From contig NC_052400.1 in assembly GCF_009389715.1 (NCBI RefSeq), positions 186,001 to 250,000 of the forward strand: a DNA stretch of 64,000 nt, in the 5' to 3' direction. Positions 27,277 through 61,912 of the stretch are shown piece after piece; the first letter of the stretch is position 1; each line of letters begins with the position of its first letter. Below the pieces are notes generated by a model. That model searched no databases. It saw only the letters and a program-made list of their open reading frames with translations, and had not been told where the DNA came from. The stretch is from Phoenix dactylifera (lineage: Eukaryota > Streptophyta > Magnoliopsida > Arecales > Arecaceae). A program made the translations under genes and the position numbers.

Positions 27277-27473
27277 TCCTCATATGCAGCTCTCAACTCA
27301 GCCTCAATAGACCAATTACATGTTTTTCCAAGATGTTTTCAGCAAAAATAGTAACCATTTTAATACGTCAGATTTTTCGTGAGAACTCACATATTCAAAC
27401 TTTTCCCTTAAGCCTATAAGCTTAATTCAAGAAGTTTGGTGCTCAGACCACAGACCATATTAATTAAGTCTCT
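27277..27473 (-). mobile_element. LINE 3' fragment with RNase H domain, part 2
   Basis: On the minus strand the sequence abutting the LTR fossil encodes ELRAAYE, the central RNase H motif. It continues directly in the fragment at 16690-17039. The join across the 5-bp duplication shows that the LTR element inserted into this LINE. Confidence 0.65.
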
Positions 27474-27644
27474 CGTACATCGTCAAGGCAAGATCAACAA
27501 AATAGGTAGTTGAGTGATTGCAACACCAACCTACTCCATTGTCGGTCATAATAATAAGCAAACACCACATTCTACACAAATATTTGAAGTCCTCATAATA
27601 AAAACTAGCAAGCAAAGGGATGATCGATCCCAATGATCCGTAGT

Positions 27645-28390
27645 TTACAGGATGGAACAAACGTTGGGGTTCGAATAAATATTGGGATCCTCGTACACTA
27701 CCACGGGCGGAGCTGGCGGGTAACCATACCATGCAAAGTTAGGCTCAACCTTTGGTTCTTTTGATTCTTCATCATCTTTCTTCACTTCCGCCACTTTAAC
27801 TATGACAGAATGGCCTATCTTCTTCCTCAAAATGCCTGTCAAGATAACAGGATCGGCTTCTCCGACAACAACCAACTGGTTCTTCTCCCCGTCCACCTTA
27901 ACAGAATCAACGCCTGTCGTATTAAAAAGAAAAAAATTGTATCAGTTGGAGCTCGGCATCTTGGGAGTCCATATATTTGGGGCATGATAGTCATAATTAT
28001 ATATATTTTATCTGATTTCTAATTTATATATTCAGCAAAGATGAGCCTCAAGAATCTGGTAATCTACCACCTGCTGATGCAGCCAACTGCATGGCCTTGC
28101 TCCGGCACTTCTCGCAGTTCATCTGCACGTTGATCACCATCTCCTTCTGCAAACACAAAATATATGCATGTATATATCACCATGTAAGAATTGCTATCAG
28201 CTGACGAAACTAAATTCAATTTTAGCGATTAACTGTGGCATGGTGTTGAGTTGATCCAATAGCAAACAAAGAGAAGTGCATATACCCTAAGAAAATAGTA
28301 CTGCCATTCGACAAGCAGTATGTTTTCATATATGTGGCATCAGAATAAAAATATAAAGAAAAAAGGCGAGTTGGCCGTACGTACCTTCAT
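27645..28390 (-). CDS. Heavy-metal-associated isoprenylated small protein (HIPP), copy 1
   Basis: Three exons on the minus strand: 28385-28390 (ATG AAG), 28071-28146 and 27645-27913. All introns are GT-AG, giving 116 residues. The HMA domain begins MKKEMVINVQ and holds the copper-chaperone-like metal motif MNCEKC. A charged linker (VKKDDEESKEPKVEP), a tyrosine/proline segment (WYGYPPAPP) and a C-terminal CaaX box CSIL follow; the last residue L favours geranylgeranylation. HIPPs bind metals or partner proteins and attach to membranes through the lipid. The exon structure matches copies 2 and 3 exactly. I give no family-member number. Real expression is likely but not shown. Confidence 0.9.
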
Positions 28391-28492
28391 GTTTTTTCTA
28401 GTTCTTTGTCGAAGGGTATGGAAGGATCGGTCTTGGTGCTGAACAGATGAGAAGTTAACTCTGATAGAGGGAGAGAGATGAGAGGAGGTCTC

Positions 28493-28500
28493 TTTAAATA
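28493..28500 (-). promoter_or_regulatory. TATA box of HIPP copy 1
   Basis: TATTTAAA on the minus strand lies about 105 bp upstream of the ATG, followed by a CT-rich leader. It is conserved in copies 2 (43229-43236) and 3 (60627-60634). Confidence 0.65.
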
Positions 28501-28859
28501 GGAGCTTGTTGGGCTTTTTTTTTTTTTTTTTTTGGTAATATGGTTATTGTGCATTTAAGAAGGAAAGGTCTTCCAAGAATCTTCAAATCTTCCACCAACT
28601 CTAGAAAGCCGTAAAATTTCAGCAATTCGTTTCCTACAAATTTGAAGGCCGCGGTTTCTGGACCAAGTCGTGGTGAATCAATGGCATCAACTGCAGCTGA
28701 GGTCCCCCCACCGCATGGTAAGTTCGTTTCTTTTTTTTTTTTTGATAAATAGGGGAAAAATTACTTTATTTTACTGTAAATATATACATCCATGGAAATC
28801 ACAAAATAAGATATTCAAAAATTTAAACAATAAAATAGCTGTAGAATTTTATAAAATAG

Positions 28860-29530
28860 TTTCTATATGGTTTGCTACATAAGATGCCATTGAATCTCCT
28901 ACACAGCACAAAAGAAAACAAATTACTTGTCATTTACAAACAATATTGTAGAATAGAATGAGAATTAGGTTCTAGAGTAAGTGAAGTTAATAACCATTTG
29001 ATAATTGCAGTAGATGAGTAGAATCTCTTATATATAAAATATGTGAAGTCCTCGATATCTGTCCCTTCTAAGCTGCATATAGCTCCACTTAGAATTGTTG
29101 AATTAAAAACTCGAACTCCACCTATAGCAAGTAGAATACTACTAGGACTTCTGATTATAAACTTTGCTCCACCAAAAACACCTCTCTCGTATAGGCTATT
29201 GTCGAAGTTAATTTTAAGAAAGCAAGAGATGGTGGTTCCTAAGAAAAATAAATAAGCTAAGAGGACCATAATCTACAAAGGAAGGGTCAAGAGCCATAAC
29301 TTATTCTTACTATCAATGGATCCTCCAAATTCTTGAGGATGAGTGGATATTCTAAAAAGAATCATTCTAACACTCTATTTCTTACTTCAAAAATACATTT
29401 ATTTCTAGCCAAGGAAGTCGTCGGTGGATGGTGTAGAAATAATGTCTGAATCATGAAGGGGGGCCAATTTCTACGCACGTGATGCCACTCTTTAAACGGT
29501 AAGTTTCTTTCAACGTAACTCCAGCAAGGT
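28860..29530 (-). mobile_element. Degenerate LINE remnant (zinc-finger and RNase H region)
   Basis: On the minus strand, FLKINFDNSLYERG, GGAKFIIRSPSS and LLAIGGVRVFN match the start of a plant LINE RNase H domain. Upstream text such as ARNKCIFE matches the region before it. Paralogous remnants lie near 43550-44110 and 60990-61640, so the insertion predates the segmental duplication. Stops and frameshifts are present. Confidence 0.6.
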
Positions 29531-30011
29531 ACCATCAGACCCGTTTGAACACAAAAAACCTTAAGTTTCATTTTTTATGGCCCTTGGAGAATACGTATAC
29601 ATTAGAAAAATTAAACTTGACTTACCATAAAAAAAAAAAAGGCAACTTGACCTACCAACAAAAAAAAAAAGAAAAAGGCTTGACTAGACTTTTTAGAGGT
29701 CTTCTCCTCTCTCTTTTTTTTTTTTTTTTTTTTTTCTGTGGCGAAAGGGCAAGGGGGAGGAAAGGACAAGCCCTTAGAGGTCTTCTCTTTGGTAGCTTTG
29801 CCCATGAATTCTACCAAAAACAATAACATCAAAGTCAAAAGCTCGCCCGCTATTTTTGTACCTAGGTTTACTTGACTTAAAGACTCAAACGTGAATGAGA
29901 ATTTTAGAAGTTTTTTAATATTTTTGTATTATTACTTTTCATAGGTGATGCGGTGATTGTTTACCAATATTTTCCTATATTGACGATGGTAGCGAACAAA
30001 GGAACGACCGG

Positions 30012-30112
30012 ATCTTCGAAGACATTGATAAAATTGGAATGATACAGGGAAGATTAGCATGCCCTTACGCAAAGATGACACGCATAAATTGAGAAATAAA
30101 TCTAAATTTTTT
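30012..30112 (+). pseudogene. U6 snRNA pseudogene, unit 1
   Basis: The stretch ATAAAATTGGAATGATACAG, then AGATTAGCATG, GATGACACGCATAAATTGAG and a final T run, follows spliceosomal U6 snRNA in order. The invariant ACAGAGA box reads ACAGGGA, the 5' stem is altered, and I see no plant upstream sequence element. It is inherited with segment B (paralogs at 45454-45557 and 63761-63862). Confidence 0.75.
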
Positions 30113-30821
30113 AAACCAAAAAAATAAAAAAAGGAGCGACCAAGAACTGCCAAAATTGTATGTGATTTTTATAAGACTCCGAGTCACTCATACCCACTCA
30201 ACCTGGTCCTGCCGAGTCTAAGCCCAGACGCGTTCATATGGACTTGTAAATAACCAAATTGACTATGAACGTGATAGAGTACGAGACTTATAATTTAGCT
30301 CCAATAGATGGTTCAACTACTGCTTGGAATTGGGGTCAATTGGAGCCAATAGCCCTGTCGGTTATTAAACAAAGCAACCCAATTAAACACGGTGATGTGC
30401 CCTTTCTGAAGACCTGAGGCCTTTCTAGTTTGCTGAAAATTTTTTTCTCACTAAATTATTTTTTAATTAATAAAAAATAGTATATTTTAGAATGTTTATA
30501 TTTAATTGAATATTTATTTTTTAAAAAATAGTATAAAATATTAATTTTAATTTTAATAAAAAAAATCTTATCCGGCTGGATGGGGTGATAAACTTGAGGC
30601 CATTTTAGCCAGGACTACAGGAGCAATGGGACCCGTTTATGGACAACATTGACTTGCGGTCAATCTTGCTTTTGAAAGAATCAAACTCTTTTTAACCAAA
30701 GGAGGAAGAGACATCACTGTCCTTTTGTAAAAGTGGAATTCTACTTTACCAAAGCCATAATTGATTAGAAAGACTTTTCCTCGAAACCTACGGTCTTTTA
30801 AAATATGAACTAATGAACCAA

Positions 30822-32706
30822 CACTACAAGAAAAAGGAGCTTTGGCGACGCTTTTTGAGGCTTTTACCGACGCTTATAAGCGTCGGTAATTTTCTTTCCG
30901 ACGCTTTTCAAAGCGTCACCAAAGCGTCGGCTATGTCGGAGTGGAAAAAAAATTGCTGACGCGTTTGAAAAGCGTCGCTAAAGGTTATTTTTAGCGACGC
31001 TTTTAAGCGTCGCTAAAATTCCTCAACCAGTTCAATTAGCGACGCTTTAAAGCGTCGTCATAAATTTTTTTATGAAAAAAAATATAAAAATACCCAAGAA
31101 AACCTTGCTGTCCCCTGTAAATTAAAAAGAAAAAAAAATTACTAGGCGGCCTCAGCGATGGTGCTGTTGGCACAGAAGTCGTCGCGGGTGGCGCCGTTGC
31201 CGCCAGGGATGAGGAAGTGGGCCAGCTGGCCGGTGTTGGCGACGAGATTCTCGTTGCAGAGGAACTCCTCGCTGCACACCCGCTCCACCTCGCGCTCGTA
31301 GTCGTGGACCAGCACGTCGGTGGGCCCCGGGCCGGCGGAGCGGGCCATCACCGCTGCCGTGAAGATGGCGGACATCCTCCCGGGGGAGGTGGAGGCGTAG
31401 CCGCGGGGCCCGTCCATGAGGATGACGTCCCAGGGGATGTCGTAGAGGGCGTTGGGGAGGTCGTTGAGGGCGAGGCGGCAGTCGGAGAAGAGGAGGTTCT
31501 GGACGGGGCGGCAGTCCCCCCGGCGGCCGCGGCGAGCGGCGGCGATGAGGTCGGGCATCTCTCGGGCCTTGGTGGTGTAGGCGATGTCGTAGGCCTCGAG
31601 GCCCGGGAGGCGGCCCTCGAGGTGCGCGATGTAGTACTCGTTCTCGTCGAGAAAGACGGTGCCGCCGTGGTTGAGGGCGCGCCAGAGAGGGGTCTCGTGG
31701 CCGAGGCCAAAGACGAGGAATTTGCAGGGAGCGCGGCGGCGGAGCACGGCGGCGATGGTGCGGAGGTCGGCGTCTCCCATCTTGCCGCTGGAATTTGAGG
31801 CGGCGGCGTAGTTGACGAGGGCGTCAAAGACGGGGTCGGGGAGACGGGAGTTGTGTCGGAAGGAAGAAGGGGCACGGGCAAATTGGTTAGAGGAGGAGAG
31901 GCCGGGGTCTCGAGGGGTGGTGGTAGTGGTGACGAAGGCGAGGAGGGCGGTGAAGGTGAAGAAGGAGGCGAAGGCGATGAGCCAGAGACGGTGATGAGAC
32001 CCCAGGAGATACAACATGGGCGCCGCCGTGGATCCACCGCCGGCGCCGGCGCCGCCTCCGCCACCTGCCTGCTTGGAGGACTGCAGGAGGATGAGCTTGG
32101 CGTTGTTGATTCCCTTCATCTCTTTTGTGCGCTGCTCTAATTTACAATAGGAGGAGGGATCGGGGGCTTGGGTGGCCTGAGAAGGCATGAAGCCGACGCC
32201 GGAGAAGAGGGAGGAAGCTCCATCGAACTCCATCGACGCCGGAGAAGAGGGATCGGGGGCCTGGGTGGCCGCTCTCTCTCTCTCTCTCATGCTTCTTGGA
32301 AGGAATCTAATCAAGAATCGGGAGGGGGTTAGAGATTTGTAAGGGAGGGGGTTTGAGGGATCGGGAGAGGGGAGGGGATTTGTAGAGAGGAGGGGGGAGG
32401 GGGCGAGCGGCGGAGAGAGAAGGAGAGGGGGGCGGCTGGATTGGTTAGGGATCGGGAGGAATTTGCAGGGAGGAGGGCAAGGGGGGATAATGGCCTCCGA
32501 CGACGCTTTCTAAAGCATCGTTGGGAGGAAAAAAATAAAAAAAAAAAGAATTTTTGCTTCCGCCGACGCTTAAAAGCGTCGGCCCAAGCTACGGGTTTCA
32601 ACGACGCTTATAAGCGTCGGCGGAAGCCAGACTTCCTAAAAAATTACCGATGCTTCTACTTAGCGTCAGCAGACAAAAGTCAGGAAAGATAGTTTTTCTT
32701 GTAGTG
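30822..32706 (-). mobile_element. Pack-CACTA transposon carrying an IRX15-like gene
   Basis: The ends are CACTACAAGAAAAA and TTTTTCTTGTAGTG, a 14-bp CACTA terminal inverted repeat, flanked by the 3-bp duplication CAA (30819-30821 and 32707-32709). Paralogous unit 2 has the uninterrupted site near 46228 (GAACCAGCATCC). Subterminal GCGACGCTT/AAGCGTC repeats in both orientations fill 30840-31060 and 32490-32665, as expected for transposase-binding sites. No transposase is encoded. The cargo is a GC-rich DUF579 coding sequence at 31142-32119. The element therefore moved by trans-acting transposase after unit 1 separated from unit 2. Confidence 0.88.
31142..32119 (-). CDS. IRX15-like DUF579 protein, captured inside a CACTA element
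   Basis: This is an uninterrupted 325-residue frame. The start was chosen at MKGINNAKLILL because IRX15 proteins begin this way; the frame is open further upstream to 32314 but that part reads as leader sequence. Features are a short cytosolic N-terminus, a single membrane anchor (about 45-63, LWLIAFASFFTFTALLAFV), then a luminal DUF579 domain with FLVFGLGHETPLW (134-146), DENEYY (158-163) and DGPRGY (236-241). IRX15 and IRX15-L are Golgi proteins needed for normal secondary-wall xylan; the sister GXM clade are glucuronoxylan 4-O-methyltransferases. IRX15 genes are normally single-exon, so retrocopying need not be invoked. It lies between CACTA termini, so it is a transduplicate. Whether it is expressed is unknown. 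Confidence 0.82.
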   Translation of the reverse strand: MKGINNAKLILLQSSKQAGGGGGAGAGGGSTAAPMLYLLGSHHRLWLIAFASFFTFTALLAFVTTTTTPRDPGLSSSNQFARAPSSFRHNSRLPDPVFDALVNYAAASNSSGKMGDADLRTIAAVLRRRAPCKFLVFGLGHETPLWRALNHGGTVFLDENEYYIAHLEGRLPGLEAYDIAYTTKAREMPDLIAAARRGRRGDCRPVQNLLFSDCRLALNDLPNALYDIPWDVILMDGPRGYASTSPGRMSAIFTAAVMARSAGPGPTDVLVHDYEREVERVCSEEFLCNENLVANTGQLAHFLIPGGNGATRDDFCANSTIAEAA

Positions 32707-33055
32707 CAAGTATCCGGCCTTCAAATATTCTTCACGCCTTTAAAAAAAAAAAATCAGCCTCCAATTGTCATTTGTAATCTTATTATTATAGGTCCTTGGT
32801 TTTAGTTTATTTTTTTTTGCATCGGGAGTTATGTTGATGATAAAAAATACGAAAATATGATGACCAGAAAGCGACCTAACTACGTTCTTGCTTCTTTTTT
32901 TTTTTTTTTTTGAGAACTAAATAAGTTCTTGTTAATTAAAGTTTAAAACTCGAATATTTTTACGCAATTGGCTGGCGTTTATTATTTCTTAAACAATTAC
33001 TTTACGTTAATAAAGAGGTAGCAAGAGTGACCTAACTACGTTTCTTGTCAACTCT
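32707..33055. repeat. End of segment B1
   Basis: This aligns with about 46232-46560 of unit 2. It is AT-rich with homopolymer runs and has no gene. Homology to unit 2 stops near 33055, where a LINE block begins. Confidence 0.7.
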
Positions 33056-34190
33056 TAGTAGATTGCCGGTGACGGTGGACACGGCGAGGATAGCTGGCCT
33101 CAGGGTCAGAGATCTGATGGAGCCGGAGGGAGGACGATGGAGAGAGGAGCTGATTCAGAAGGTGTTTGGGGTGCAGCTGGCAGAGATGGTACTGGCTCTA
33201 CCTGTTCTTGCCCGAGAGAGGCCAGACAGACTAGTCTGGGTGCCTACAGGGAGGTCGCAGGTGCGCGCTAGGGATATTCATCAGTTGATGAGCCGAGAGC
33301 CAGGCCGGCAGATAGAGGGGGGATGGATTTAGAGGATGCAGATTCATCCGCGTGTGGCGCTCTTCATTTGGAAGGTGGCATGGGGTTGCTTACCGATCAG
33401 GAGCTTGTTAGCACGGCGTGGGATGAGGATCACTCAGGGTTGCGAGGTGTGCATAGATACTGAGGAGACTATTGATCATGTTCTACTGCAGAGTCCCAGA
33501 GCCAGGGAGATTTGGAGGAGATCACCGGACCTATTGCCCCACTCAGTCGAGTCGGTACAGGATTTGATTCATTGGTTGAGGGTCTCCATGCGAAGGCCTA
33601 GTACTGCTGATGCAGGGATTCGCTGGGCATATTTGGCTTGTTATATTTGGTTGGATAGGAATGCTGGCTTGTTTGAGGGTAGGAAGTTGCCACCGAGGAT
33701 GGTGGTGGATAGAGCGATACGTTATGCGAGGGAGATCACCACAGTTGCGGCGAGGTTCTCTTCTGGGATGGCCGGGGACATCTCGGGTACTCCTTTCGCT
33801 GTTACAGCGCCCAGGTTCGCCCTTGTTTCTTGGGTACCCCCACCCTCCGGTTATCTCAAGGTGAACTTCGATGGTAGTATGTCGGCGGACGGAGTGTTCA
33901 GAGGCGTTGGCTTTGTGATCAGAGATCATCTCGGAAGGATGATAGCAGCTGGTGGTCGTCGTACGCCGGGACATACTGCTGTTGGGATGGAGCTGCGGGC
34001 AGCTTGGGAAGGAATATCCTTTGCTAGGCAGATATTGGGTGCTGAGCGTCTATGTCTTGAGGGGGACTCCTCTGTGGTGATTGACTGGGTGCGAGGACTG
34101 ACAGATATGGTGATGGCTATCCTCTTATCCGCGACACTCGTAGGTTGGCTCAGGAGTTTTTAAGAAAAAATCATATTGTGAGGAAATTAG
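33056..34190 (+). mobile_element. LINE fragment: zinc-finger (zf-RVT) and RNase H domains
   Basis: Two open stretches, 33045-33332 and 33336-34163, encode the C-terminal part of an L1-type plant LINE ORF2. The zf-RVT domain has HPRVALFIWKVAWG and CEVCIDTEETIDH. The RNase H domain follows, with VNFDGSMSADG, VGMELRAAWEG and LEGDSSVVIDWV. The catalytic D, E and D are visible. The reverse transcriptase is missing upstream, and a stop separates the two stretches. It diverges clearly from the LINE pair at 34746-41270. Confidence 0.78.
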
Positions 34191-34745
34191 TTGAAATATT
34201 CAACAGAGGAGTTGCTGTTGTGCCATCAAGATCTTCGACTACAGCCAACAACCATCTTCAAAGCTTCTGATCTATATTTATTATTTCATTTACTTTAAAG
34301 CTTCGTTTACATAGTTGCAGTATTTATTACATATTTTTAAACTCTGTTGTAACGGTTTTATTTGCTCTAAAATTGATAATGGTTCTTCCAAATCTTAATT
34401 GGAAGTTGTTGAATCAGGAGATTCAACAAGGTTTAAGGTTTTGATTGGTGAGCCTGTGAAAACCAGCTAGATTGTTTGTGAGCCCGAAAAAACAAATGTG
34501 TAAACATTTTGGTTGGTGAGCCTATGAAAACCAGCTGGATTATTTGTCAGCCCAGAAAACAAACGGGTTAAGGTTGTGGTTGGTGATCTTGAAAAAACTG
34601 ATTGGATTCGTTGTGATTCCAAAAAAACAGCGAGTTGGGTTATGAGCTCGAAAAACAACCATAGTGTAATCAGAGTAGTTATAGTAAAATTTTCAAGAGT
34701 CTTGAAGAGTGGATGTAGGTGTGGGTTACACCAAACCACTATAAA
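34191..34745 (+). mobile_element. Copia-type LTR fragment (fossil)
   Basis: The sequence closely follows the R/U5 part of copia (SIRE-like) LTRs, with repeated GTGAGCC...AAAACCAGC phrases and a closing GGATGTAGGTGTGGGTTACA. A similar passage occurs in the solo LTR at 38053-39575. It is a broken piece lying directly against LINE sequence, with no ends of its own visible. Confidence 0.55.
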
Positions 34746-36933
34746 TTTTCTTGTCTCAGGCACTGCGGGGCGCGTGTACGAATCGAGAGTTGGAGGCTTA
34801 CGTTCTAGCCTTAGAGGTCTGGCCCATCTCTCATTTACTCTTTGCCGATGATTGTCTTTTGTTGGCCAGGGCAGGGGTAACGGATGCTCAGGTCCTTAGG
34901 GGCGTGCTAGCGGATTATTGTGCAGCATCAGGGCCGAGAATAAACCTCCAGAAGTCAACCATCTCCTTCAGCCCTAGCACGGAGCACAGGGTTAGACGAG
35001 AGATTCAGAGGATTCTGGAGATGCCAGAGCAGGACGAGACTTGGAGCTACCTAAGTGTACCCATCACAGGTAGGAGGTTGAGGATGGTTGAGTGCTCTGG
35101 TCTGGTGCCGCGTGTGCAGAGCAGACTGGAGGGATGGAGGACGTCGTCTCTTTCTATAATGGGCAGATTAACACTGATTAGATTGGTGCTAGGCTCCATG
35201 CTCGTCTACCTCATGGCAAACATGGTGGTACCAAAGACAGTGCTGATAAGGATCGAGCAACTAATTCGGATCTTCTTGTGGGGGTCATATGGAGGGGGAC
35301 ATTGGATGCATTTAGTGGCATAGGAGAGTGTTTGCCTACCCTTGAGTGAGGGCGGCCTTGGGGTGTTTTCTCTCCTAGAGAGGCGTGAGGTGCTCATTGC
35401 TCGACATGCAGTTCAATTTAATGCTGGAGACACAGGGATTCTAGGGTCAGATTATGACAGCTAAATATGGCCGGGCAAGCCCTAAGGGGGTGGCCCAGAG
35501 TGGGCGCAAATGTTCCTTCATGTGGCGAGAGGCACCTGCCAATTGTTTCGGCAAATACTAGATGACTGATAGGTGATGGGAAAAGCATCGAGATGGCCGA
35601 CGATCCGTGGGTGGATGCCCTCCCTTTAAGGCTCTAGCCAACTACGGTTAATGTAGAGGCAGTGAAGGGACTATGGGTATGCGACCTCCTCGACCCAAGG
35701 GGGGCAACGTGGGACGATGCCAGGTTGGGTCAAGTTTTTGGAGTACATCTTGCTGAGAGGGTCTGGTCTCTTTCGGTACTGGGGTGTGCAGGACCAGATA
35801 TCCGGATTTGGAGCACATCATGTAGAACCGGCATCAGGGTGGTGGATCTCTCCCGCGTGTTCCAGTGGGAGCATGAGCCAGGGCCGGAGTGTGCTTGGAT
35901 CTGGTGCTTGGGCCTTCACCCGAGGGTAGCACTATTCTTATGGATGGTGGTCTGGGATCGGCATCCAACGAGAGCTGTACTCAGCGGACGAGGTTTGAGA
36001 ATTTCTTCAGAGTGCGGGGTGTGCGGTGTTGACGAGATGGTGGACCATGCGTTGTTTAGTGCACATAGACGAGGGTGACTTGGCAGTTGGCAGAAATTCT
36101 ATGGGTGGCTTGGAGTTAGAGGGACCAGTTCTTACGGACCATCCGTCGGTGGTCGAGCTGCCCACTGACACGCTAGGAGGTTGTTAGAGCGACTTGCACA
36201 ACATAGTAGATCTGGCTGGTAAGGAATGTTCAAACTTTTGGTGAGCACAACATGTCGCCAAGGCTCGTAGCGGAGAGCGCTTGGGCGCAGGCGGTGGAGA
36301 TTAGTCATGTTTCCTTCTCAGAAACGCCATTGACAGCTCGAGATATCTGGAGTTCCCATTCTGCCCAGGCAGCACTTTGTATAGTATTTTTATCTAGAAG
36401 CTCCCACCCAAGCTTCCTCAAGGTCAACTTCGATGTGTCTGTTTTAGATGGAGGCACGAGGAGAGGTGCGGTTTTCGTCATCAGTGACCCAAATTCTAGG
36501 GTAGTGGCAGCGGGCGACTGTCAGTTATTCGACATCACGATATTCGGTGTGGAGTTGAGGGCTGCATGGGTGAGCCGTCGACATGCTCGGCGAGTGCTAC
36601 TAGCTAGTTCAGTCATCCTGGAGGGTGACTCAGCCACAGTCATCAGTAGGATCCAAAGGGGTTCGAGGGCTGCCGACTGCGACCATCCCTTGCTTCAAGA
36701 CATCTGGATGATGATGCGGGATAGAGAGGTTGTCCAGGCTAAGTATGTATTTAGAGAAGCCAACGGATTGGATGGTTGCCAATGTGGCCAGCTATGCTGT
36801 TAGCACCTTGTCGACTGGGGATGGGAGCTGCCTCGAGAGCTCCGCGACATTCTATTTTCTGATTTTATTAGGTGCATTCATACACGTATTGTATGAACTA
36901 CCTGTCCTAGCCAAAAGAAAGAAAGAAAGAAAG
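34746..36933 (+). mobile_element. L1-type LINE, copy A, 5'-truncated
   Basis: The order is the reverse transcriptase C-terminus with the FADD catalytic box (34841-34852), a thumb-like region (34751-35323), zf-RVT with HPRVALFLWMVVW and CGVCGVDEMVDHALF (35662-36078), RNase H with VNFDVS, VELRAAW and LEGDSATVI (36252-36803), and a 3' tail of (AAAG)n at 36911-36933. Stops separate these parts (for example TAG at about 35321), so it is dead. Copy B at 37493-41270 shares the same lesions, showing that the element was inactive before the local duplication. Confidence 0.82.
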
Positions 36934-37492: not shown

Positions 37493-40400
37493 GTCCACCA
37501 TGGGGCTTAGACAGGAATGTCCTTTATCCCCGTATTTGTTCATTATTTGCCCTGATGTCTTGTCTTAGGCACTGCGGCCGTGTGTACGAATCAGGAGCTG
37601 GAGGCTTACGTTCTAGCCTCAGAGGTCTGGCCCATCTCTCATTTACTCTTTGCTGATGATTATCTTTTTTTGGCCAGGACAGGGGTAACGGATGCTCAGG
37701 TCCTTAGGGGCGTGTTAGCGGATTATTGTGCAGCATCAAGGCCGAGAATAAACCTCCAGAAGTCAACCATCTCCTTCAGCCCTAGCACGGAGCGCAGGGT
37801 TAGACGAGAGATTCAGAGGATTCTGGAGATGCCAGAGCACGACGAGACTTGGAGCTACCTAAGTGTACCCATCACAGGTAGGAGGTTGAGGATGGTTGAG
37901 TGCTCTGATCTGGTGCCGCATGTACAGAGCAGATTGGAGGGATGGAGGACGTCGTCTCTCTCTATAATGGGCAGATTAACGCTGATTAGATTGGTGCTAG
38001 GCTCCATGCTCGTCTACCTCATGGCAAACATGGTGGTACCAAAGACAGTGCTTGTTGACCCCCTAATGGATTTTGATGAATACAAAACACTAGAGTATAA
38101 TTCCATTTATCTTAACAATTTACTTGAGGATTTCATGTGTTTAATTAAGAATATTGTTAAAAAATGTCTAGGCAAGTTTCCATAATTTTATGAATTTATT
38201 GAAGAATTTTTGAGCTGAAGAAAACAGATCAGGGACAGCCGAGACGTCTCCGGGTTGTCTCAGAGACGTCTCTGGCACAAACAGGAAGAACTGGCACGAC
38301 TGGAGACGTCCCCGGCACCTGCCGAGTCGTCCCCGCGATAGCGGAGTCGACTCTCTCAGTAGCGGAGTCGACTCTCTCAGTAGCGGAGTCGACTCTCTCA
38401 GAGGCGGCAGAAAGGCCGATTTCAAGTGATATGCGCGAGTCGTCTCCACAGTAAGCGGAGTCGTCCCCGCAAGTAAAAAGTAAACCTCCCGAGTCGTCCC
38501 CGAGGTAGCGGAGTCGGCTCTCTCAGGGTTTTCCAGAGGATGTCTTTTTCGGTGTTAAGGCAGCGGAGACGTCCCCTGAAAGAGCGGAGTCGACTCTCTC
38601 AGAGAATTCCAGAAGACATGTTTTTCGGAGATATAACAGCGGAGTCGACCCCGAAGCAGCGGAGTCGTCCCCATGCAAAAAGCGCAAACAAGCCGAGACG
38701 TCCCCATAAAGCGCCGAGTCGACCCCAAACAACGTCAAAAGTAAAATCTTACAGCCGAGACGTCTCGCGTTGAAGCGGAGACGTCTCCGGAGCGCCTGGG
38801 ACGCGACTGACACCTTTTTGCAGGATGTTTTGAATTTCAAATCTCTTTAACTTTATCTCTAACGGCTATATTTGCTTTTTGGGCTATAAAAGGGACCTCT
38901 TAAGTGCTTCTCAACAACTTCTCACCAACCCAACACAAGATCATTCAAGAGAGAAGCAAGAGAGAGAGGTTCAAGGGAGTTAGTGCATTCAAGTGAAGAA
39001 ATCAAGTGCCTTCAAGCTTCCCAACTGATTTCAAGCTCAACTACTCTCTTCCGCTCGGGATTCAAAGCTCACACTCAAGCCAACGCGATCCACATCGGAA
39101 GAACCATCATCTCCCACGCTTCCAACAGCTAAAAGGGTTCTTCCGGGTTCTATTGCTTATCATTGTTATATTTGCTTATTTAGAGCTTTTAAATCCTTGT
39201 AAAACTTTTTCAATATTGTGCTTGTTCCAGTCAAGGGACTTGGAACAAGGAAAATGCGTCCCAAGCCTAGGTTAAATTGGGGGTTATAGGGTTCGTTGTT
39301 AGCCCGGTGTAAAACAACGAGTTGGGTAGTGCACTCGCAAAACTACCGGACTGTAATCTTGGATTATAGTGGAAATTTCCAAAGGTGCTTTGGGGAGTGG
39401 ATGTAGGAGCAGTGGAAGCTCCGAACCACTATAAAACCTCGTGTTTGCGATTGACTGTTCTCATCCCTCCATCTTTACTTTAGTTCATACATCTGCGTGT
39501 TTTATTTTTTAAATAGTCAAAAAGTTTTAAAACATCCAATTCACCCCCCTCTTGGGTGACCATCTCTGGGCAACAGTGCTGATAAGGATCGAGCAACTAA
39601 TTCGGAGCTTCTTGTGGGGGTCGTATGGAGGGGGACATTGGATGCATTTAGTGGCATAGGAGAGTGTTTGCCTACCCTTGAGTGAGGGCGGCCTTGGGGT
39701 GTTTTCTCTCCTAGAGAGGCGTGAGGTGCTCATTGCTCGACATGCAGTTCAATTTAATGCTGGAGACACAGGGATTCTAGGGTCAGATTATGACAGCTAA
39801 ATATGGTCGGGCAAGCCCTAAGGGGGTGGCCCAGAATGGGCGCAAATGTTCCTTCATGTGGCGAGAGGCACTGCCAATTGTTTCGGCAAATACTAGATGA
39901 CTTATAGGTGATGGGCAAAGCATCGAGATGGCCGACGACCCGTGGGTGGATGCCCTCCCTTTAAGGCTCTAGCCGACTACGGTTAATGTAGAGGCAGTGA
40001 AGGGACTATGGGTATGCGACCTCCTCGACCCTAGGGGGGCAACGTGGGACGATGCCAGGTTGGGTCAAGTTTTTGGAGTACATCTTGCTGAGAGGGTCTG
40101 GTCTCTTCCGGTACTAGGGTGTGCAGGACCAGATATCCGGATTTGGAGCACATCATGTAGAACCGGCATCAGGGTGGTGGATCTCTCCCGCGTGTTCCAG
40201 TGGGAGCATGAGCCAGGGCCGGAGTGTGCTTGGATCCAGTGCTTGGGCCTTCACCCGAGGGTAGCACTATTCTTATAGAAGGTGGTCTGGGATCGGCATC
40301 CAACGAGAGCTGTACTCGGCGGACGAGGTTTGAGAATTTCTTCAGAGTGCGAGGTGTGCGGTGTTGACGAGACGGTGGACCATGCGCTGTTTAGTGCACA

Positions 40401-41270
40401 TAGACGAGGGTGACTTGGCAGTTGGCAGAAATTCTATGGGTGGCTTGGAGTTAGAGGAAACAGTTCTTACGGACTATCCGTCGGTGGTCGAGCTGCCCAC
40501 TGACACGCTAGGAGGTTGTTAGAGCGACTTGCACAACATAGTAGATCTGGCTGGTAAGGAATGTTCAAACTTTTGGTGAGCACAACATGTCGCCGAGGCT
40601 CGTAGCGGAGAGCGCTTGGGCGCAGGCGGTGGAGATTAGTCATGTTTCCTTCTCAGAAGCGCCATTGACAGCTCGAGATATCCGGAGTTCCCATTCTGCC
40701 CAGGCAGCACTTTGTATAGTGTTTTTATCTGGAAGCCCCCACCGAAGCTTCCTCAAGGTCAACTTCGATGTGTCTGTTTTGGATGGAGGCACGAGGAGAG
40801 GTGCGGTTTTCGTCATCAGGGACCCAAATTCTAGGGTAGTGGCAGCGAGCAACTGTCAGTTATTCGACATCACGATATTCGGTGTGGAGTTGAGGGCTGC
40901 CTGGGTGAGCCTTCGACATGCTCGGCGAGTGCTACTAGCTAGTTCAGTCATCATGGAGGGTGACTCGGCCACAGTCATCAGTAGGATCCAAAGGGGTCCG
41001 AGGGCTGCCGACTGCGACCATCCCTTGCTTCAAGACATCTGGATGATGATGCGGGATGCAGAGGTTGTCCAGGCTAAGTATGTATTTAGAGAAGCCAACG
41101 GATTGGATGGTTGCCAATGTGGCCAGCTATGCTGTTAGCACCTTGTCGACTGGGGATGGGAGCTGCCTCGAGAGCTCCGCGACATTCTATTTTCTGATTT
41201 TATTAGGTGCATTCATACACGTATTGTATGAACTACCTGTCCTAGCCAAAAGAAAGAAAGAAAGAAAGAA
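37493..41270 (+). mobile_element. L1-type LINE, copy B, interrupted by a solo LTR
   Basis: A tandem paralog of copy A, about 98% identical by eye, extending slightly further 5' into the reverse transcriptase (GLRQECPLSPYLF). Coding parts are at 37580-38052 (FADD box), 39997-40278 (zf-RVT) and 40587-41138 (RNase H), with the (AAAG)n tail at about 41251-41270. It shares the internal stops of copy A and is not functional. A solo LTR (38053-39575) sits in the reverse transcriptase region and is absent from copy A, so it arrived after the duplication. Confidence 0.82.
38053..39575 (+). mobile_element. Solo LTR of a copia-type element inserted in LINE copy B
   Basis: It starts TGTTGACCCCC, ends CTGGGCAACA, and is flanked by the 5-bp duplication GTGCT (38048-38052 and 39576-39580). 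LINE copy A has the uninterrupted site near 35234. A TATA box (GCTATAAAAGGG) at about 38882-38893 marks the promoter. 38230-38810 is filled with short GAGACGTC and GAGTCGAC-type repeats. No internal region remains. It is young relative to the LINE duplication. Confidence 0.82.
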
Positions 41271-41700: not shown

Positions 41701-42204
41701 GGGGAGGCCATGGAGGCGGCGGCCATGGCTGCCTCCTCTTGTTTTCTAAGCATGGCAGCGGGTTGAAGGGATGGGTTTAGTTTGTTTATGAGCCGGAGGG
41801 CGGCTCTGATATAGCATAAATATTTTTTACTAACCTTCGGTCATTATTAAATTAAGCATAATCAAGCACATGCACCAACGACAGACAGAAAAGAAGAAGA
41901 GACCTACAGGAGAGAGGAAGAGGAGGGGAGATTCGGAGCTTCCAACTTATGTAAGACTTGAGTACCTTAGGTGATAGATTCACAGACTATTTATAATACT
42001 ATGTTAGGGATCCGGATCTTTATCTTTAAGGTTTATCTCTAATTAGTTTCCATCCATCACAGGAACTACATGATAAGATAAACTCTGAATAATCTCTAAT
42101 CAGATTGGATTAAATCACCATTTAAACGAGGTTGTGTTTATTCTGATGTGGGTAAACTTGATCAGGTGAGCCAGTCTCCTAAAATCAAGAGACATGCTAA
42201 CATC
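41701..42204. other. Unclassified sequence before unit 2
   Basis: I see no gene, RNA or clear element ends. It joins the LINE block to the start of homology with unit 1 at about 42205. Confidence 0.45.
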
Positions 42205-42372
42205 TTGTACGTCGTCAAGGCAAGATCAACAAAATAGGTAGTTGAGTGGTTGCAACACCAACCTACTCCATTGTCGGTCATAATAAAAAGCAAACACACC
42301 ATTCTACACAAATATTTGAAGTCCTCATAATAAAAACTAGCAAGCAAAGGGATGATCCCAATGATCCATAGT

Positions 42373-43126
42373 TTACAGGATGGAACAAACGTTGGGGTTC
42401 GAATAATTACAGGGATCCTCGTACACTACCACGGGCGGAGCGGGCGTGTAACGATACCATGCAAAGTTAGGCTCGACCTTAGTTTCTTTTGATTTCGCTT
42501 CATCATCTTTCTTCACGTCCGCCACTTTAACTATGTCAGAATGGCCTATCTTCTTCCTCAAAATGGCTGTCAAGATAACAGGATCGACTTCTCCAACAAC
42601 AACCAACTGGTTCTTCTCCCCATCTACCTTAACAGAATCAACGCCTGTCGTATTAAAAAGAAAAAAATTGTATCAGTTGCAGCTCGGCATCTTGAGAGTC
42701 CATATATTTGCGACATGATAGTAATAATTATATATGTTTTTATTTGATTTCTGATTTATATATTCAGCAAAGATGAGCCTCAAGAATCTGGTAATCTACC
42801 ACCTGCTGATGCAGCCAACTGCATGGCCTTGCTCCGGGACTTCTCGCTGTGCATCTGCACGTTGATCACCATCTCCTTCTGCAAACACAAAATATATGCA
42901 TGTATATATATATCACCATGTAAGAATTGCTATCAGCTGACGAAACTAAATTCAATTTTAGCGATTAACTGTGGCATGGTGTTGAGTTGATCCAATAGCA
43001 AACAAAGAGAAGTGCATATACCCTAAGAAAATAGTACTGCCATTCGACAAGCAGTATGTTTTCATACATGTGGCATCAGAATAAAAATATAAAGAAAAAA
43101 GGCGAGTTGGCCGTACGTACCTTCAT
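42373..43126 (-). CDS. HIPP-like small protein, copy 2, metal-binding cysteines lost
   Basis: Three exons at 43121-43126, 42803-42878 and 42373-42644 on the minus strand give 117 residues, with intact GT-AG sites and a conserved TATA box. The protein is collinear with copies 1 and 3 and keeps the CaaX box CSIL. The metal motif, however, reads MHSEKS instead of MNCEKC: both cysteines are serine and N is H. Other changes are scattered (WYRYTPAPP for WYGYPPAPP). HMA folds without CxxC occur in plants and can still bind proteins, so this copy probably cannot coordinate metal by the usual motif but may keep a scaffold role. A decaying pseudogene is the alternative, though nothing else is broken. 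Confidence 0.82.
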
Positions 43127-43228
43127 GTTTTTTCTAGTTCTTTGTCGAAGGGTATGGAAGGATCGGTCTTGATGCTGAACAGATGAGAAGTTAACTCTGA
43201 TAGAGGGAGAGAGATGACAGGAGGTCTC

Positions 43229-43236
43229 TTTAAATA
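43229..43236 (-). promoter_or_regulatory. TATA box of HIPP copy 2
   Basis: TATTTAAA on the minus strand, at the same distance from the ATG as in copies 1 and 3, with the same CT-rich leader after it. Confidence 0.6.
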
Positions 43237-43249
43237 GGAGCTTGTTGGG

Positions 43250-44304
43250 CTTTTTTTTTTTTTTTTGGTAGCACGGTTATTGCGCATTCAAGAAGGAAAG
43301 GTCTTCCAAGAATCTTCAAATCTTCCACCAACTCCAGTAATCCGCTGCAGCTGAGGTCCCCCCCACCGCATGGTAAGTTCATTTCTTCTTTTTTAGTAAA
43401 TAGGGAAAAAAATAACATTATTTTACTATAAATACATCCATGGAAATCATAAAATAAGATATTCAAAAAATTGGATGGTAAAGTAGCCGTAGAATTTTAT
43501 AAAATAGTTTTCTGTATGGTTTGCTATATAAGATGTCATCGAATTAGCTTCTCTGCAAATATGAGATGCTTCAAAAGAAAACAAATTGCTTGTCATCTAC
43601 CAACAATCTTGTAGAATAGAATGAGAATTAGCCTCTAGAGAAGGTGAAGCTAAGAACCATTTGATAATTGCAGTAAATGAGTAGAATTTCCTTATATATA
43701 ACTATATGAGGTTCTCAATATCTGTGTAGCATACGTCAATCTCTTCTAAGCTACATACAGTTCCACTTAGAACTGTTAAATGAAAAACTCGAACTCCACC
43801 TGTAGCTAGTAGAACACTATTAAGATTTCTGATTATAAAATTTGTTCCACCAAAAACACCTCTCTCATATAGGCTATTGCCAAAGTTGATTTTGAAAGAA
43901 AAAAAAGTGGTGGCTCATAAGAAAAATAAATAACCTAAGATGACTAGAATCTACAAAGGAAGACCCACAGTTTATTCCTACCATCAGAGGATCCTCCAAA
44001 TTTTTGAGCATGAGCGAATATCTAAAAAGAATCGTTCCAGCACTCTATTTCGTACTTCAAAAATACATTTATTCTTGGCCAAGAAAATCATCAGTGGATA
44101 GTGCAGAAATAATGTCTGAACCATGAAAAGAGGCTAATTTCAAGGCTTAACTAGGCTTTTTAGAGGTTCCCTTTGGTAGCCGTCCAATTAAAAAATTGTA
44201 CGAAAGGAAAATGCAAGGCGTCAGTACTTCGTTCATTGAGGCCAATACGGCAATGAACGAGCTTTGTGTTCATCTTAAAAAAGCGTTGCGGGTATATCTT
44301 TTGC

Positions 44305-44371
<67 letters not shown>

Positions 44372-45453
44372 CAACGGTTAGAAAAAAAATTTGAATTGTA
44401 CTTTTTTTAAATAAAAAATTATTTTTTAGAATACTAATTATTAATTGCATCACATCAATTTTTTTCACGTCACTTCGCATGAAGTGATCATTGCATCATT
44501 TAATGGTCCATGTCATGATGCAGGTGAATCATTATTTTGCATAAAAGGTACAATTGGAACCTTTTATTAAAGTTAGGGTGATGTAGTAGCACACTTTAAT
44601 AAAAGGTACAATTCGAACCTTTTAAAAAAAATATCTCAAGGCAAAATCTGACTAATATATTTAATATTTTAACATGGGATGCTGTAGCAGATATTTTAAC
44701 TGAGTCTAGACCATCAATCTCTCTCCTCTTTGGCCAAACAGCTGAGACGATACTTATCTACTACTTTAAATTCTTCTTACCTTCTTTGAAATCTTCTTTT
44801 CCTTATTGCATTCCTTATCCCTATTCTATGTATTTTACCCCTTCTTAATAAAATTTTGGTGACTAATCCAGGTTCCTAGCTCCTTAGCCTCCATTTTCAT
44901 TACCATATATATCAAAACACACATGTATACATACATACATATACACACATACGTATATAGGTAGTTGCCCCAAGACCATGGTCTCCAAAGCATGGGCCAC
45001 GCCGGGACTAAGATAAGCTAATTCATGTAAATCAAACCAAAATTAATTTTTAAAGTGGATGCATCTTATGGGGATATGAACCAAGACTTTTTTTCAAAAA
45101 AAGCTACAATATTTCAGCTACCAACTCATCCGCAAGGGCCAACAATTGGTATACACGGCATAAGAACAAGTCAAAAGCTTTGCCCATGAATTCTACCAAA
45201 AAAAAAAAAAAAATCAAAGTCAAAAGCTCGCCTGCTATTTTTGTACCTAGGTTGACATGACTTGAAGACTCAAACATGGATGAATATAAATACACGTGAA
45301 TGAGAATTTTAGGAAAAAAAATATTTTTGTAGAAGAAAACAGAATTGATTACTAATTAATCTCACTTAAAAATGGTCATTACTCTTCATAGATGCGGTGA
45401 TCGTTTACCAATATTCTCCTATATCGACGATGTTAGCGAACAAAGGAACGACC
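43250..45453. repeat. Segment B2: upstream of HIPP2
   Basis: This is non-genic. It holds a degenerate LINE piece on the minus strand (about 43550-44110) and a (TAA)n run at 44305-44368 that is absent from unit 3. It also holds the empty site of the unit 3 SINE at 44713-44731. Confidence 0.7.
44305..44368 (+). repeat. (TAA)n microsatellite, about 21 repeats
   Basis: A pure trinucleotide run in segment B2. The equivalent position in unit 3 (about 62260) has only a T run, so the expansion is specific to this copy. Confidence 0.9.
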
Positions 45454-45557
45454 ATCTCTTCGGAGACATCAATAAAATTGGAACGATACAGAAAAGATTA
45501 GCAAGCCCTTACGCAAAAATGACACGCATAAATCGAGAAATAATCTAAATTTTTTTA
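45454..45557 (+). pseudogene. U6 snRNA pseudogene, unit 2
   Basis: This is the closest of the three copies to genuine U6. CTTCGGAGACATC, AAAATTGGAACGATACAG, AGATTAGCA, ATGACACGCATAAATCGAGA and a final T run are all in order. The ACAGAGA box reads ACAGAAA and several bases are missing from the stems. I see no snRNA-type promoter upstream. Confidence 0.78.
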
Positions 45558-46570
45558 AACCAAAAAAAAAAAGGAGCGACCAAGAACTGCCAAAATTGTA
45601 TGTGATTTTTATAAGACTCCAAGTCACTTGTACCCACTCAACCTGGTCCTGCCGAGTCTAAGCCAAGACGCGTTCATATGGACTTGTAAATAACCAAATT
45701 GACTATGAACGTGATAGAGTACGAGCCTTATAATTTAGCTCCACTTGATGGTTCAACTACTGCTTGGACTTAGAGCCAACAGCCCTCTCGGTTATTAAAC
45801 AAACCAACCCAATTAGACGCGGTGATGTGCCCTTCTAGGAGAATTGAGGCCTTTATAGTTTGCTGAAATCTTTTTTCTCACTAAAATATTTTTTAATTAA
45901 TAAAAAAATTATATTTTAGAATGATTTATATTTAATTGAATATTTATTTTAAAAAAATATTATAAAATATTAATTTTAATTTTAATAAAAAATTTTATCC
46001 GAACGGGGTGATAAACTTGGGGCCATTTTAGCCGAGCAATGGGACCCGTTTATGGATAACATTGACTTGGGGTCAATCTTGCTTTTGAGAGAATTCAAAC
46101 TCTTTTTAACCAAAGGAAGAAGAGACATCACTGTCCTTTTTATAAAGTGGAATTCTACTTTACCAAAGTAAGCCATAATTGATGAGAAGGCCGTTCCCTT
46201 GAAACCCTACGGTTTTCTCAAATATGAACCAGCATCCAGCCTTCAAATATTCTTCACTCCTTTGAAAAAAAAAAAAAATCAGCCTCCAATTGTCATTTGT
46301 AATCTTATTATTATAGGTCTTTGGTTTTAATTTAATTTTTTTTTGCACCGGGAGTTATGTTGATGATAAAAAATAAAAAATTATGATGACTAGGAAGCGA
46401 CCTAACTACGTTCTTGCTTTTTTTTTTCTTTTTGAGAACTAAATAAGTTCTTGTTAATTAAAGTTTAAAACTCGAATATTTTTACGCAATTGGCTGGCGT
46501 TTATTATTTCTTAAACAACTTACTTTACGTTAAAGAGGTAGCAAGAGTGGGCTCAACTCTTAAAGAAAGC

Positions 46571-47768: not shown

Positions 47769-49785
47769 ATGTCATCTTTTGAGGAAAGTCATTTTGGCAT
47801 TCCTCCTGTTTTTGAGGGAGAAGAAACTAATCCCCAACCTCTGTTCCTAGTTCCCCTAGAACTAGTGAACCGAGTGAAGATCAAACCTCTTCTCGTAAGA
47901 GGACTAGTTCTGTATGGAATGAATTTGATAGAATTATGGTTAATGGAGTCTGGAAAGCAAAATGTAAAAAATATGCCAAACTTTATAGTTGTAGTAGTAG
48001 TGGGGGAACAGGCCATTTAAAAAGATATCAAGAGAGTCATAGGATGCATGATTCTCGTCTTCAAAGTACCCTTAATATACAAGGATGATCACTTTTAGGT
48101 AATTTTGCATATAATCATGAAAATCAAAGAAAAACACTTGTAAAATAGATAGTTAAGGATGAATTACCTTTTAGTTTATGTGAATCTTTTAATTTTGAAG
48201 AATATGTTCAATTAAACCTACAACCTGCTTACAAAAGAACAAGTAGGCATACATTTAGAAGAGTAGCTATAACTAACTTTTTAGCAATGAGACAAAATTT
48301 AATTGAAACACTCTCTACTTTAAATGTAAAAGTTTCATTAACTTCTGATATTTAGTCAGCATCTGTAGGTAGTAATTGTTTTATTGCTATTACTGCTCAT
48401 TATATTGATAATGATTGGCAATTAAATAAACGTATTCTTGCTTTTCGTGCTTTTGATTTTTCATATTCTGGGCAACAAATTTCAAATGCCATTTATCAAA
48501 CTGCATGTTCATATAATATTAATGATAAAATTATGTCTATTACTTTTGATAATGCATCTAATAATAATTTTGTTGTTACATTATTAAAAAACTCATTGTA
48601 TCCCATGTTAAATAGAAATTTATTGCATATTAGATGTGCATGTCATATCTTAAATCTTTCTGTTCAAGATGGCATGGGCATGATTCAAGATGTCATTTCA
48701 AAATTTAGAAATGCAGTTTCTTTTATTCATGCTTCAAGATCAAGACTTTAAGAATTTAAGGAACTATGTATAAATCATGGTAAACGTTTTAAAAAATTTA
48801 AACTTGATGTAATTACTCGTTGGAACTCAACATATAGCATGATACATGATGCATACCCATATAAAAACTTATTAAGTTCATATATTAATGATCGTGGATT
48901 AGGCTTTACATTGACTGAAATTGATTGGAATAAAGAAAAAATTTTGGAAGATTTTTTGCTTAGTTTTTATAATGCTACTAATGTTCTTTCTAGTATTTAT
49001 TATCCAACTTCATGTTCCTTTTTACAACAAGCATATATGATTAGTCAAAAATTTACAGAACATAGATATAATGATGTTTTAATGCCTATTATTGAACAAA
49101 TGGAATCTAAATGGAATGAGTATTGGGACAAGATCTGTCCTATGCATAACTTAGCTGCTGTATTTGATCCAGGAGTTAAATTGAATGGCGTACTAATTTT
49201 ACTTGATGCATATTGTGAAAATACGATTCAAGATCCTGAACCTGCTAAAATTGAGGTAAAACAACTTCTTTATGATATTTATGCTATATATGATGAAAAA
49301 ATTCGTGGATCTAGATTTTCTGTACAAAGCTCTATTTCTTTTTCTAGTAGTTCTCGTTCGTCATCTATTTTTTCATTCATTGCATAGAGAAAACACACAC
49401 ATGCTTCAAGTTCATCTTCATCTTCTTCATCTTTAAGTAGTGAACTAGAATTTTATTTACGAAATGATCTTCAGTCTGCATATGATGAAAATCAAATAGA
49501 GAGTCTAGATGTATTATCTTGGTGGAAGAGTGTAAAAAATCAATATCATGTTATGTCTGCAATTGCACGCGATATTTTAGCTGTGCCGATGTCCACAGTA
49601 GCATCGGAATCCGCTTTTAGTGCAGGTCGGCGTGTTCTTGACGAAAAGAGAAGTAGGATGACTGGCGAAACGGTTGAGATGCTTCTCTGCTTCAAAGATT
49701 GGTTGGATGCTTAGGCGAGATTTCAAGATAAAGGTGGACATGATACAACATCCTCTGATGATGATGATACAAACACTACTGAATA
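47769..49785 (+). pseudogene. hAT transposase, inactivated by several stops and a frameshift
   Basis: This aligns throughout with 397-2264. Lesions include a 1-nt loss near 47840 that shifts the early frame, and stops where copy 1 has Trp or Gln codons (near 48147, 48352, 48749, 49385 and 49711). The BED finger is also lost: the second Cys and one His are Tyr. Domains remain recognisable, including CACHILNLS and the dimerisation domain PMSTVASESAFS. Copy 2 keeps a serine-rich stretch of about 170 bp (about 49262-49430) that is missing from copy 1. Confidence 0.88.
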
Positions 49786-52371: not shown

Positions 52372-54007
52372 CTATTTTATTGCTAAATGTTTATTTGTTG
52401 ATAACTTTTACTATTCTTGTCACCAAACATAGACTATTTAATGATAAAGAATGTTTTGTTACCACTTCTTCATTGTGTAAATTTATGATAAAATAGTTTC
52501 TCATTGCTAATTATTTATATAATTTTTAGTAATAATAATATATCATTGTTAGATAAATGTTTACTGGCAACATATCAAGTTTTATTGAAGAATACTAAAT
52601 ACTTGGCGGTCAACTAACTTTTGTCATCTATATTTCATTTTATAACTTTTATGATAAAACAGTTTTTACTACTAATTATTTATAATTTATTTTAATGAAG
52701 AGCGATTAATTAATTTAATTTATTGTAAAATATTTTAAATTTTTTGATGATGATAATATTTTTGACTAAATATTTATTTGTTAGAGATATAAAAGATTTT
52801 GTTGCGAAATATAGGTTATTTGCACTGATTAGGTTTCGCCGTGCTTTCTTGTATTATTCTATTACTGATTACTTATGGATTTTTGTAGATGAATTAGTTA
52901 CATCAATGATATCAAATTTTACTTTTCTTTTTTTCCGTGACAAATTCCCTTTTGCTCCAACTGAATTTGATTTTAACAAAGATAACATTTTCGTCACTTA
53001 AGATAAAATTTTATGTTGTCTCGTTACTCAAATTTTTCTTTCAATTACTCAATTATGTTTTTAAGAAAATAACTAGATTAAATGTTCTATTTTACTCAAA
53101 TCTGATCCAATTCGTTTATTAAACAAATTGCAGAAGTCATGTTTGGTTAAGATTAAAATATATTTTTTTTTTTAGTTTTACGAGGGAACCTATGTGGAGA
53201 TTCCACAGAGACGAAGACACTACCAGAAAACACGCGTATAGTGACGGAGATTCCCGTCACTATACCGTGTTTCCGGTTACTAATATGGAATTTGTGACCG
53301 GAGCTCCCGTCACTGACTTCGTTACAAAAACACGCGTCGCTAAATTCTCCGTGACGGCGGCGATTCCCGTCACTAACCTCCGTGACAGAACCGCCGTCAC
53401 TAAGCCGTTACAAATTCAAGAATTAAATATTTAAGAAATTATGTATTTCCCGTCACTATCCAGTTGCGGAGTTAGTGACGAAGGCAACTTGGTCACTGAT
53501 TTTGTCACAGAATGCGGTCACAAGTTTGGTCACTAATCTGTCACGACCTTTAGTGACAGATTTAGTCGTCACAGACATGGTCACACATTTTGTCACTACA
53601 TTTGTCATTAATCCCGTCACTGACCTAGTGATAAGTTTACGGTCACTAATTGGTTACAAACGCGCTGAGCAAAATCAATTTTTATTGACCAAAATCCTGT
53701 CACTAAGTTTATGACTGCTCGTCACAATAGTTGGTAAACAATTTAGTAACCAAAATTTGGTCACCGATCACAATCTAATAACCTGGTACATTTGGTACAT
53801 TGATTGGCACATAATAATAATAACAATAATATCATTAATAGCAAAGGCATTCAACATTACGCAAAAATTATTTTAAATGTCATTCAAAATTGGCATCAAC
53901 ATGTCCTGAATCCATCAAAATCAAAGTCTAAAAATATGTCATAAAGATCAACAGAGATTTCATTCCTCCTAGGAATGCAAAGACCTATCATCTAAGGCAA
54001 AAACAAT

Positions 54008-60634: not shown

Positions 60635-60639
60635 GGAGC

Positions 60640-61854: not shown

Positions 61855-61912
<58 letters not shown>

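Follow-up and report, generated by a model that had tools for sequence, protein, structure and literature searches.

The 1,885-bp element described here is very probably a non-autonomous Pack-CACTA transposon belonging to a large date-palm family, with a fused RPA32-IRX15-like cargo that travels as a mobile, decaying chimeric passenger. It lies in the window, a stretch of 64,000 nucleotides (C9:186001-250000) of a date-palm genome that was searched as 773 Mb in 2,391 contigs. The initial annotation had proposed a Pack-CACTA element with a captured IRX15-like gene, and this proposal is borne out by the ends, the target duplication, an empty site and a donor locus elsewhere in the genome. The structural features of the element are as follows.

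30822..32706, no strand assigned: complete Pack-CACTA element, 1,885 bp, with perfect ends and 7 further IRX15-like-bearing copies in the genome
30819..30821, no strand assigned: left target-site duplication CAA, read from the sequence
32707..32709, no strand assigned: right target-site duplication CAA, read from the sequence
30822..30835, plus strand: left terminal inverted repeat CACTACAAGAAAAA, 14 bp
32693..32706, minus strand: right terminal inverted repeat TTTTTCTTGTAGTG, 14 bp
30845..31058, no strand assigned: left subterminal repeats of the GCGACGCTT type, arranged as inverted pairs, from repeat positions
32501..32619, no strand assigned: right subterminal CGACGCTT/AAGCGTCG repeats, from repeat positions
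46220..46240, no strand assigned: empty site in paralogous unit 2, from the unit alignment and the junction alignment

The two CACTA ends of the element are alike at 14 of 14 bases, and CAA flanks each of them, so that both the 1.9-kb element with 14-bp inverted repeats and the CAA duplication described initially are found in the sequence. Two CACTA-type pairs with 14-bp inverted ends and a matching 3-bp duplication occur in the window, at 30822-32706 and 53218-57724, and no such pair was seen in 100 first-order Markov resamples of the window. The subterminal repeats that had been claimed are also specific to the element. GACGCTT occurs eight times per strand in the window, every time within 30822-32706, and the longer repeat GCGACGCTT occurs 3 and 2 times on the two strands window-wide. 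The Pfam scan of the long minus-strand frame, the one frame of the element that was scanned, gave the IRX15 match and one unrelated family below cut-off and no transposase domain, in agreement with the earlier statement that the element carries none. There is little room for a transposase, since the 1.9 kb is filled by other identified sequence.

The window contains three diverged repeat units, 27471-30254, 42203-46549 and 59645-64000, about 79-95% alike over parts. The element sits in unit 1 and is missing from unit 2; the corresponding site of unit 3 is beyond the window. As had been reported, the site in unit 2 is empty: the unit alignment is at 84% over 1,397 columns, and the junction alignment shows the flanks of the element continuous at about 46229/46231. 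This is one empty site out of one testable paralogous site, as unit 3 is cut off by the end of the window ahead of the site, and a partial relative, at about 51.4-52.4 kb, stops short of it.

Several other features of the window were seen. The second CACTA element, 53218-57724, is 4,507 bp long and of a different family, with ends CACTACCAGAAAACACGCGTATAGTGACGG (31 bp alike), the duplication AGA, and a paralogous counterpart that is empty at the site, near 14660. It contains a Transposase_24 remnant, 54632-55015 on the minus strand, and a minisatellite of short-period direct repeats at 56550-56932 that gives rise to low-complexity frames. An NLR gene at 5095-7845 is unbroken (916 aa, Rx_N/NB-ARC/LRR, RPM1-like) and has an oil palm relative at 83%. 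Frames of hAT-type transposase lie in related stretches at 397-2264 and 48839-49387, the latter being shorter. RVT_1, RVT_3 and zf-RVT frames (reverse-transcriptase and RNase H-like) occupy the partly duplicated stretches 33336-36803 and 37580-41138, on a scan of all frames up to the last two.

The interior of the element holds the following features.

31142..32119, minus strand: IRX15-like frame, 325 aa, from the ORF, Pfam and the copy alignment
31660..31661, minus strand: position at which the Arg codon is lost (GGRTVFLDE -> GGTVFLDE), common to C9, C11a and C1358
31102..32145, minus strand: captured IRX15-like block, made up of the single-exon frame in full, 26 nt ahead of its ATG and about 40 nt after its stop, with GGT microhomology at the 3' edge, from the C22 alignment and junctions
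32146..32148, minus strand: 3-nt filler ATT at the RPA32/IRX15-like junction, seen when the element is compared with native C22 and with RPA32-only elements
32149..32233, minus strand: coding piece of RPA32 exon 1, MEFDGASSLFSGVGFMPSQATQAPDPSS, whose reading frame is that of the IRX15-like sequence, from database matches and the C177 comparison
31142..32233, minus strand: fused RPA32-IRX15-like frame, 363 aa if the start is MEFDG, from the ORF
32234..32269, minus strand: rearranged partial second RPA32 exon piece with 14-base repeats, found likewise in relatives, e.g. L018, L019 and L024
32270..32490, minus strand: C/T-rich stretch ahead of the fused frame, common to relatives

IRX15 and IRX15-LIKE are DUF579 proteins (PMC6508755). 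The longer frame around 31142-32119 matches Pfam IRX15_IRX15L_GXM with E 4e-77 over profile positions 2-189 of 189. The FGLGHE and DGPRGY motifs are both found, and the structure model (mean pLDDT 75.9) predicts a helix at 41-64 that is consistent with the membrane anchor, so these three features of the initial description stand, the anchor as a prediction. In all of these respects the window frame resembles IRX15/IRX15-LIKE; it differs from them in the missing Arg of GGRTVFLDE and in a possible N-terminal RPA32 extension. The top-ranked solved relatives of the model fold are COMT-like methyltransferases, with low TM-scores of 0.26-0.52 among the 50 matches listed, and a PDB sequence search gave 6 matches, none convincing, with a best E of 0.041. 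Among the best 120 of 680 database matches, the top relatives are from palms, the date-palm protein P0002 (96%) and the oil palm proteins P0003 (89%) and P0004 (82%).

The frame was also called intact, which holds in so far as it is open over 325 aa. However, an Arg that is otherwise invariant, that of GGRTVFLDE, is gone from the window copy, six of the eight copies are broken, and the substitutions look neutral. The full-length family domain is there with one of its expected residues missing. Every one of the 120 aligned database relatives keeps this Arg: the three palm rows and 117 of 117 further rows, of which the named ones are non-palm and some are unnamed. In the model, the gap falls just ahead of strand 154-158. 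A private CAG>TAG change ends the window frame one codon early, and CpG in the frame is not depleted (observed/expected 1.05).

The parental locus was looked for by alignment, as had been suggested, and is found on C22. C22:98345-99386 aligns to positions 281-1324 of the element query only, at 98% identity, and this native IRX15-like locus lies between 5' and 3' flanks of its own and lacks the termini. The captured block begins 26 nt before the ATG, right after the ATT filler, and ends in GGT, which is common to donor and element. Relative to the copies, C22 has one private synonymous and no nonsynonymous substitution. Its frame has a 1-bp deletion in the GGCCGCCGGGGGACTG G run, which reads 5 G and breaks the frame in the assembly, and for this reason C22 is possibly not functional as a gene. 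The extra G is aligned in all eight element copies, and the pattern search reads 6 G in seven of the eight, C11a being unread. The simpler reading of the C22 deletion is a homopolymer error of the assembly. P0002 was at first the best candidate for the parent gene, at 96%, and was ruled out because it is the frame of the C299 element. Retroposition was considered as well, but no poly(A) tail follows the captured sequence at its 3' edge, and filler and microhomology mark the junctions. Introns are uninformative on this point, as the native frame is a single exon.

By its sequence, the RPA32 piece is a second capture, which was overlooked in the initial annotation. A database search with just residues 1-66 of the longer frame P0001 gave 10 matches up to E 10, all 10 of them RPA32-like, the best at E 0.029; the weakness of these E-values reflects the short length of the piece, and the evidence lies in the uniformity of the matches. 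A native RPA32 on C177 has the same exon, with 63 of 71 bases alike and followed by GT, a splice site assigned by sequence and not by annotation. Since this is the best native match, the RPA32 source is approximate. A second RPA32 candidate, on C17, is 84% alike over 56 bases. The C177 match is restricted to the coding piece, with none over the leader or the C/T-rich region. Both cargo pieces thus have native counterparts elsewhere, the IRX15-like gene on C22 and the RPA32 exon on C177.

In the window element, the splice donor is lost and the IRX15-like sequence continues in frame, reading MEFDGASSLFSGVGFMPSQATQAPDPSS-YCKLEQRTKE-MKGINN. The joined RPA32-IRX15-like frame is retained in seven of the eight copies, and C8 carries one extra base. 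The RPA32 contribution is a fragment, the exon-1 piece, as the OB-fold and RPA_C domains are absent from the element. In single elements of the family, L067 and L025-L028, the RPA32 exon piece is present two or more times.

A search of the genome for other copies with the same ends and cargo, also proposed at the outset, gave seven more IRX15-like-bearing copies. They lie on C11 (two), C1358, C299, C921, C8 and C1, at 93-98% identity; the C1 copy is split in two pieces, the smaller at 90%. In this nucleotide search with the element, 40 of 1,143 first-look candidates were scored, and among them were also relatives that align over the ends and the RPA32 side alone. The RPA32/IRX15-like junction pattern, with up to 3 mismatches allowed, occurs 8 times in the genome (5 exact and 3 with one mismatch), and the control gave 0. 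Furthermore, a protein search of the genome with the oil-palm relative, in which 29 of 29 candidates were scored, recovered the 8 copies, some in pieces, together with native C22, and the other DUF579 matches were at 58% or less. Exact 3-bp duplications flank six of the eight copies (CAA, TGC, CAG, GAA, GTG and CTG); the C921 copy is without a duplication, and the C8 copy has a decayed end. A tree of the eight copies and C22 has 6 inner branches, none of them supported.

The catalogued date-palm "IRX15-LIKE-like" protein, P0002, is identical over 325 aa to the frame of the C299 element, showing that the catalogued protein is encoded by a transposon copy. The columns hit by the changes between P0002 and the window frame are more conserved than those of the palm changes common to both (10 vs 22 columns, one-sided p 0.007), which agrees with the origin of P0002 from a transposon copy.

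Unbroken IRX15-like frames are found in two copies, C9 (the window) and C299. The C11a frame has lost 4 bp close to its end, and that of C1358 has frameshifts along with a 21-bp deletion. C11b runs into a stop after 145 codons, C921 and C1 both do so after 12, and C8 has many indels. The Arg deletion is common to C9, C11a and C1358, and thus the defect has been propagated. Private changes counted in seven copies (C8 was excluded for its frameshifts) are 34 nonsynonymous and 15 synonymous, where 31.1 : 17.9 is expected without selection from the observed spectrum, and a deficit of nonsynonymous changes has p 0.85. Counted per column, there are 56 private changes, of which 41 are C>T/G>A, and 25 of these 41 are in CG context, compared with 33% of the available sites (p 2e-4). 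Compared pairwise with C22, the window copy has a dN/dS of 0.33, from 3 S and 3 N changes, and the other copies range over 0.33-1.23; the changes are too few for an argument from dN/dS, and weak constraint may be at work. Judged from these alignments, the cargo substitutions look neutral and the decay looks CG-biased.

The first 30 bases of the element have 124 occurrences in the genome at up to 3 mismatches, with 0 in the control, and 26 relatives (L018-L028, L062-L074, L078 and L080), a non-random sample, were examined. The RPA32 piece without IRX15-like sequence is present in 18 of the 26, and 15 of these 18 have a splice donor, GTA, directly after the exon end. Four (L073, L074, L078 and L080) have an AP2/ERF frame and, on one side, two short IRX15-like remnants, which are about 37-38 bp. 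The other four (L020-L023) have neither piece. In seven frames scanned with Pfam, the cargo was AP2 (L073), MYB (L024), BPS1 (L062, L064 and L072) and none in L018, and the L020 frame gave a TPR match below the curated cut-offs. Since the AP2/ERF relatives keep IRX15-like remnants, they would most simply descend from an IRX15-like-bearing element through a later change of cargo. No autonomous partner was recognised by eye in the reading frames of two long loci with the same left end, one of which is an AP2/ERF relative. Four left ends of the family lie on one strand of C11 (G000 C11:14029037, 14038642, 14048283 and 14057959) at a spacing of about 9.6 kb, perhaps a tandem array that contains the element end.

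We propose the following history of the element. The RPA32-only form would have preceded the IRX15-like-bearing form. The native single-exon IRX15-like gene would then have been placed behind the RPA32 exon with the frame preserved, leaving the ATT filler on one side and the GGT microhomology on the other. The filler and microhomology suggest microhomology-guided template switching during repair, and a single capture event is simplest, as the 5' junction is common to all eight copies. The element may then have spread by means of a transposase supplied in trans. Its copies are probably methylated and silenced, and the window copy is likely to be without a role in the cell wall.

A different origin, in which two unrelated CACTA ends happen to enclose a gene native to this site, would make the window locus itself the parental one. 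Nothing was found in its favour. The 1.8-1.9-kb unit recurs whole at seven other places, and at five of these it has a duplication of its own; moreover, the native gene, lacking the termini, lies elsewhere, and the site in unit 2 is empty. We regard this origin as ruled out by the whole-unit recurrence and the independent duplications, and its probability as negligible. It is also very unlikely that C22 is truly broken and that the only unbroken frames of the lineage are those on the CACTA elements, C299 and the chimeric C9, in which case the element would have outlived and replaced the gene.

As regards function, the window copy could be a working extra IRX15-like gene, driven from upstream of the RPA32 exon, whose putative Golgi-anchored protein alters wall-gene dosage. 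The open 325-aa frame, the anchor helix and methyltransferase-like fold of the model, the undepleted CpG of the frame (observed/expected 1.05), and the RPA32 exon piece and C/T-rich region upstream are in keeping with this. However, the otherwise invariant Arg is absent just before strand 154-158, the Arg-less form has been propagated to three copies, and the substitution pattern of the copies looks neutral, so we give a working gene very little weight. Somewhat less improbable, though still unlikely, is that the copies act mainly through RNA, with methylated similar copies feeding putative small RNAs directed against the native IRX15-like gene or RPA32. The eight copies, the stretch of about 1 kb in which the window cargo and C22 are 98% identical, and the CG-biased changes, which suggest methylation, would suit such a role, and PMC13317346 and PMC1947982 discuss expression of captured fragments. 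Against this, C22 has 1 private substitution only and no sign of like decay. The reading we prefer is that of a decaying chimeric passenger on a Pack-CACTA element.

Pack-TYPE elements, including Pack-CACTA transposons, have been described in Arabidopsis, rice and maize (PMC8903248). The date-palm element resembles them in its CACTACAA ends, its target duplication, the lack of a detected transposase, its genic cargo from more than one locus and the interior position of the later cargo, and differs in that the cargo includes a single-exon reading frame in full. Its capture edges, a filler and a 3-bp microhomology within older cargo, do not on their own demonstrate the neighbouring-insertion model given there, though this model may still apply. 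On wheat chromosome 3B, PMC4290129 counts 140 CACTA capture events, with 46% of the captured genes likely functional in structure and 17 potentially arising by exon shuffling, which means that there are precedents for large or chimeric captures. Purifying selection is reported for most of the wheat captures, and 19 of them for expression together with a dN/dS below 0.4; the date-palm copies, unlike most of these, show no sign of purifying selection. Soybean Tgm-Express1 (PMC1947982) is a CACTA element inside a host gene with five host gene fragments, introns included. It likewise combines unrelated host gene pieces, which can form chimeric transcripts, whereas the date-palm element joins one complete frame directly to one exon. 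Judged by titles and the openings of abstracts, none of the open-access papers surveyed describes IRX15 in a CACTA element or a Pack-TYPE element in a palm; among them, PMC10613528 (a barley transcriptome) mentions both IRX15 and CACTA, and PMC4717578 contains the terms for gene capture in date palm.

Gene capture by CACTA elements, including chimeras and captured genes that are fairly complete, is thus already known, and what is unusual here is how readable the history is. With the IRX15-like donor at hand, the capture can be read base by base, and one Pack-CACTA family would give an ordered cargo series, from an RPA32 exon to a whole IRX15-like frame to an AP2/ERF gene over IRX15-like remnants. 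The catalogue entry P0002 could mislead family counts, expression studies and work on the palm cell wall.
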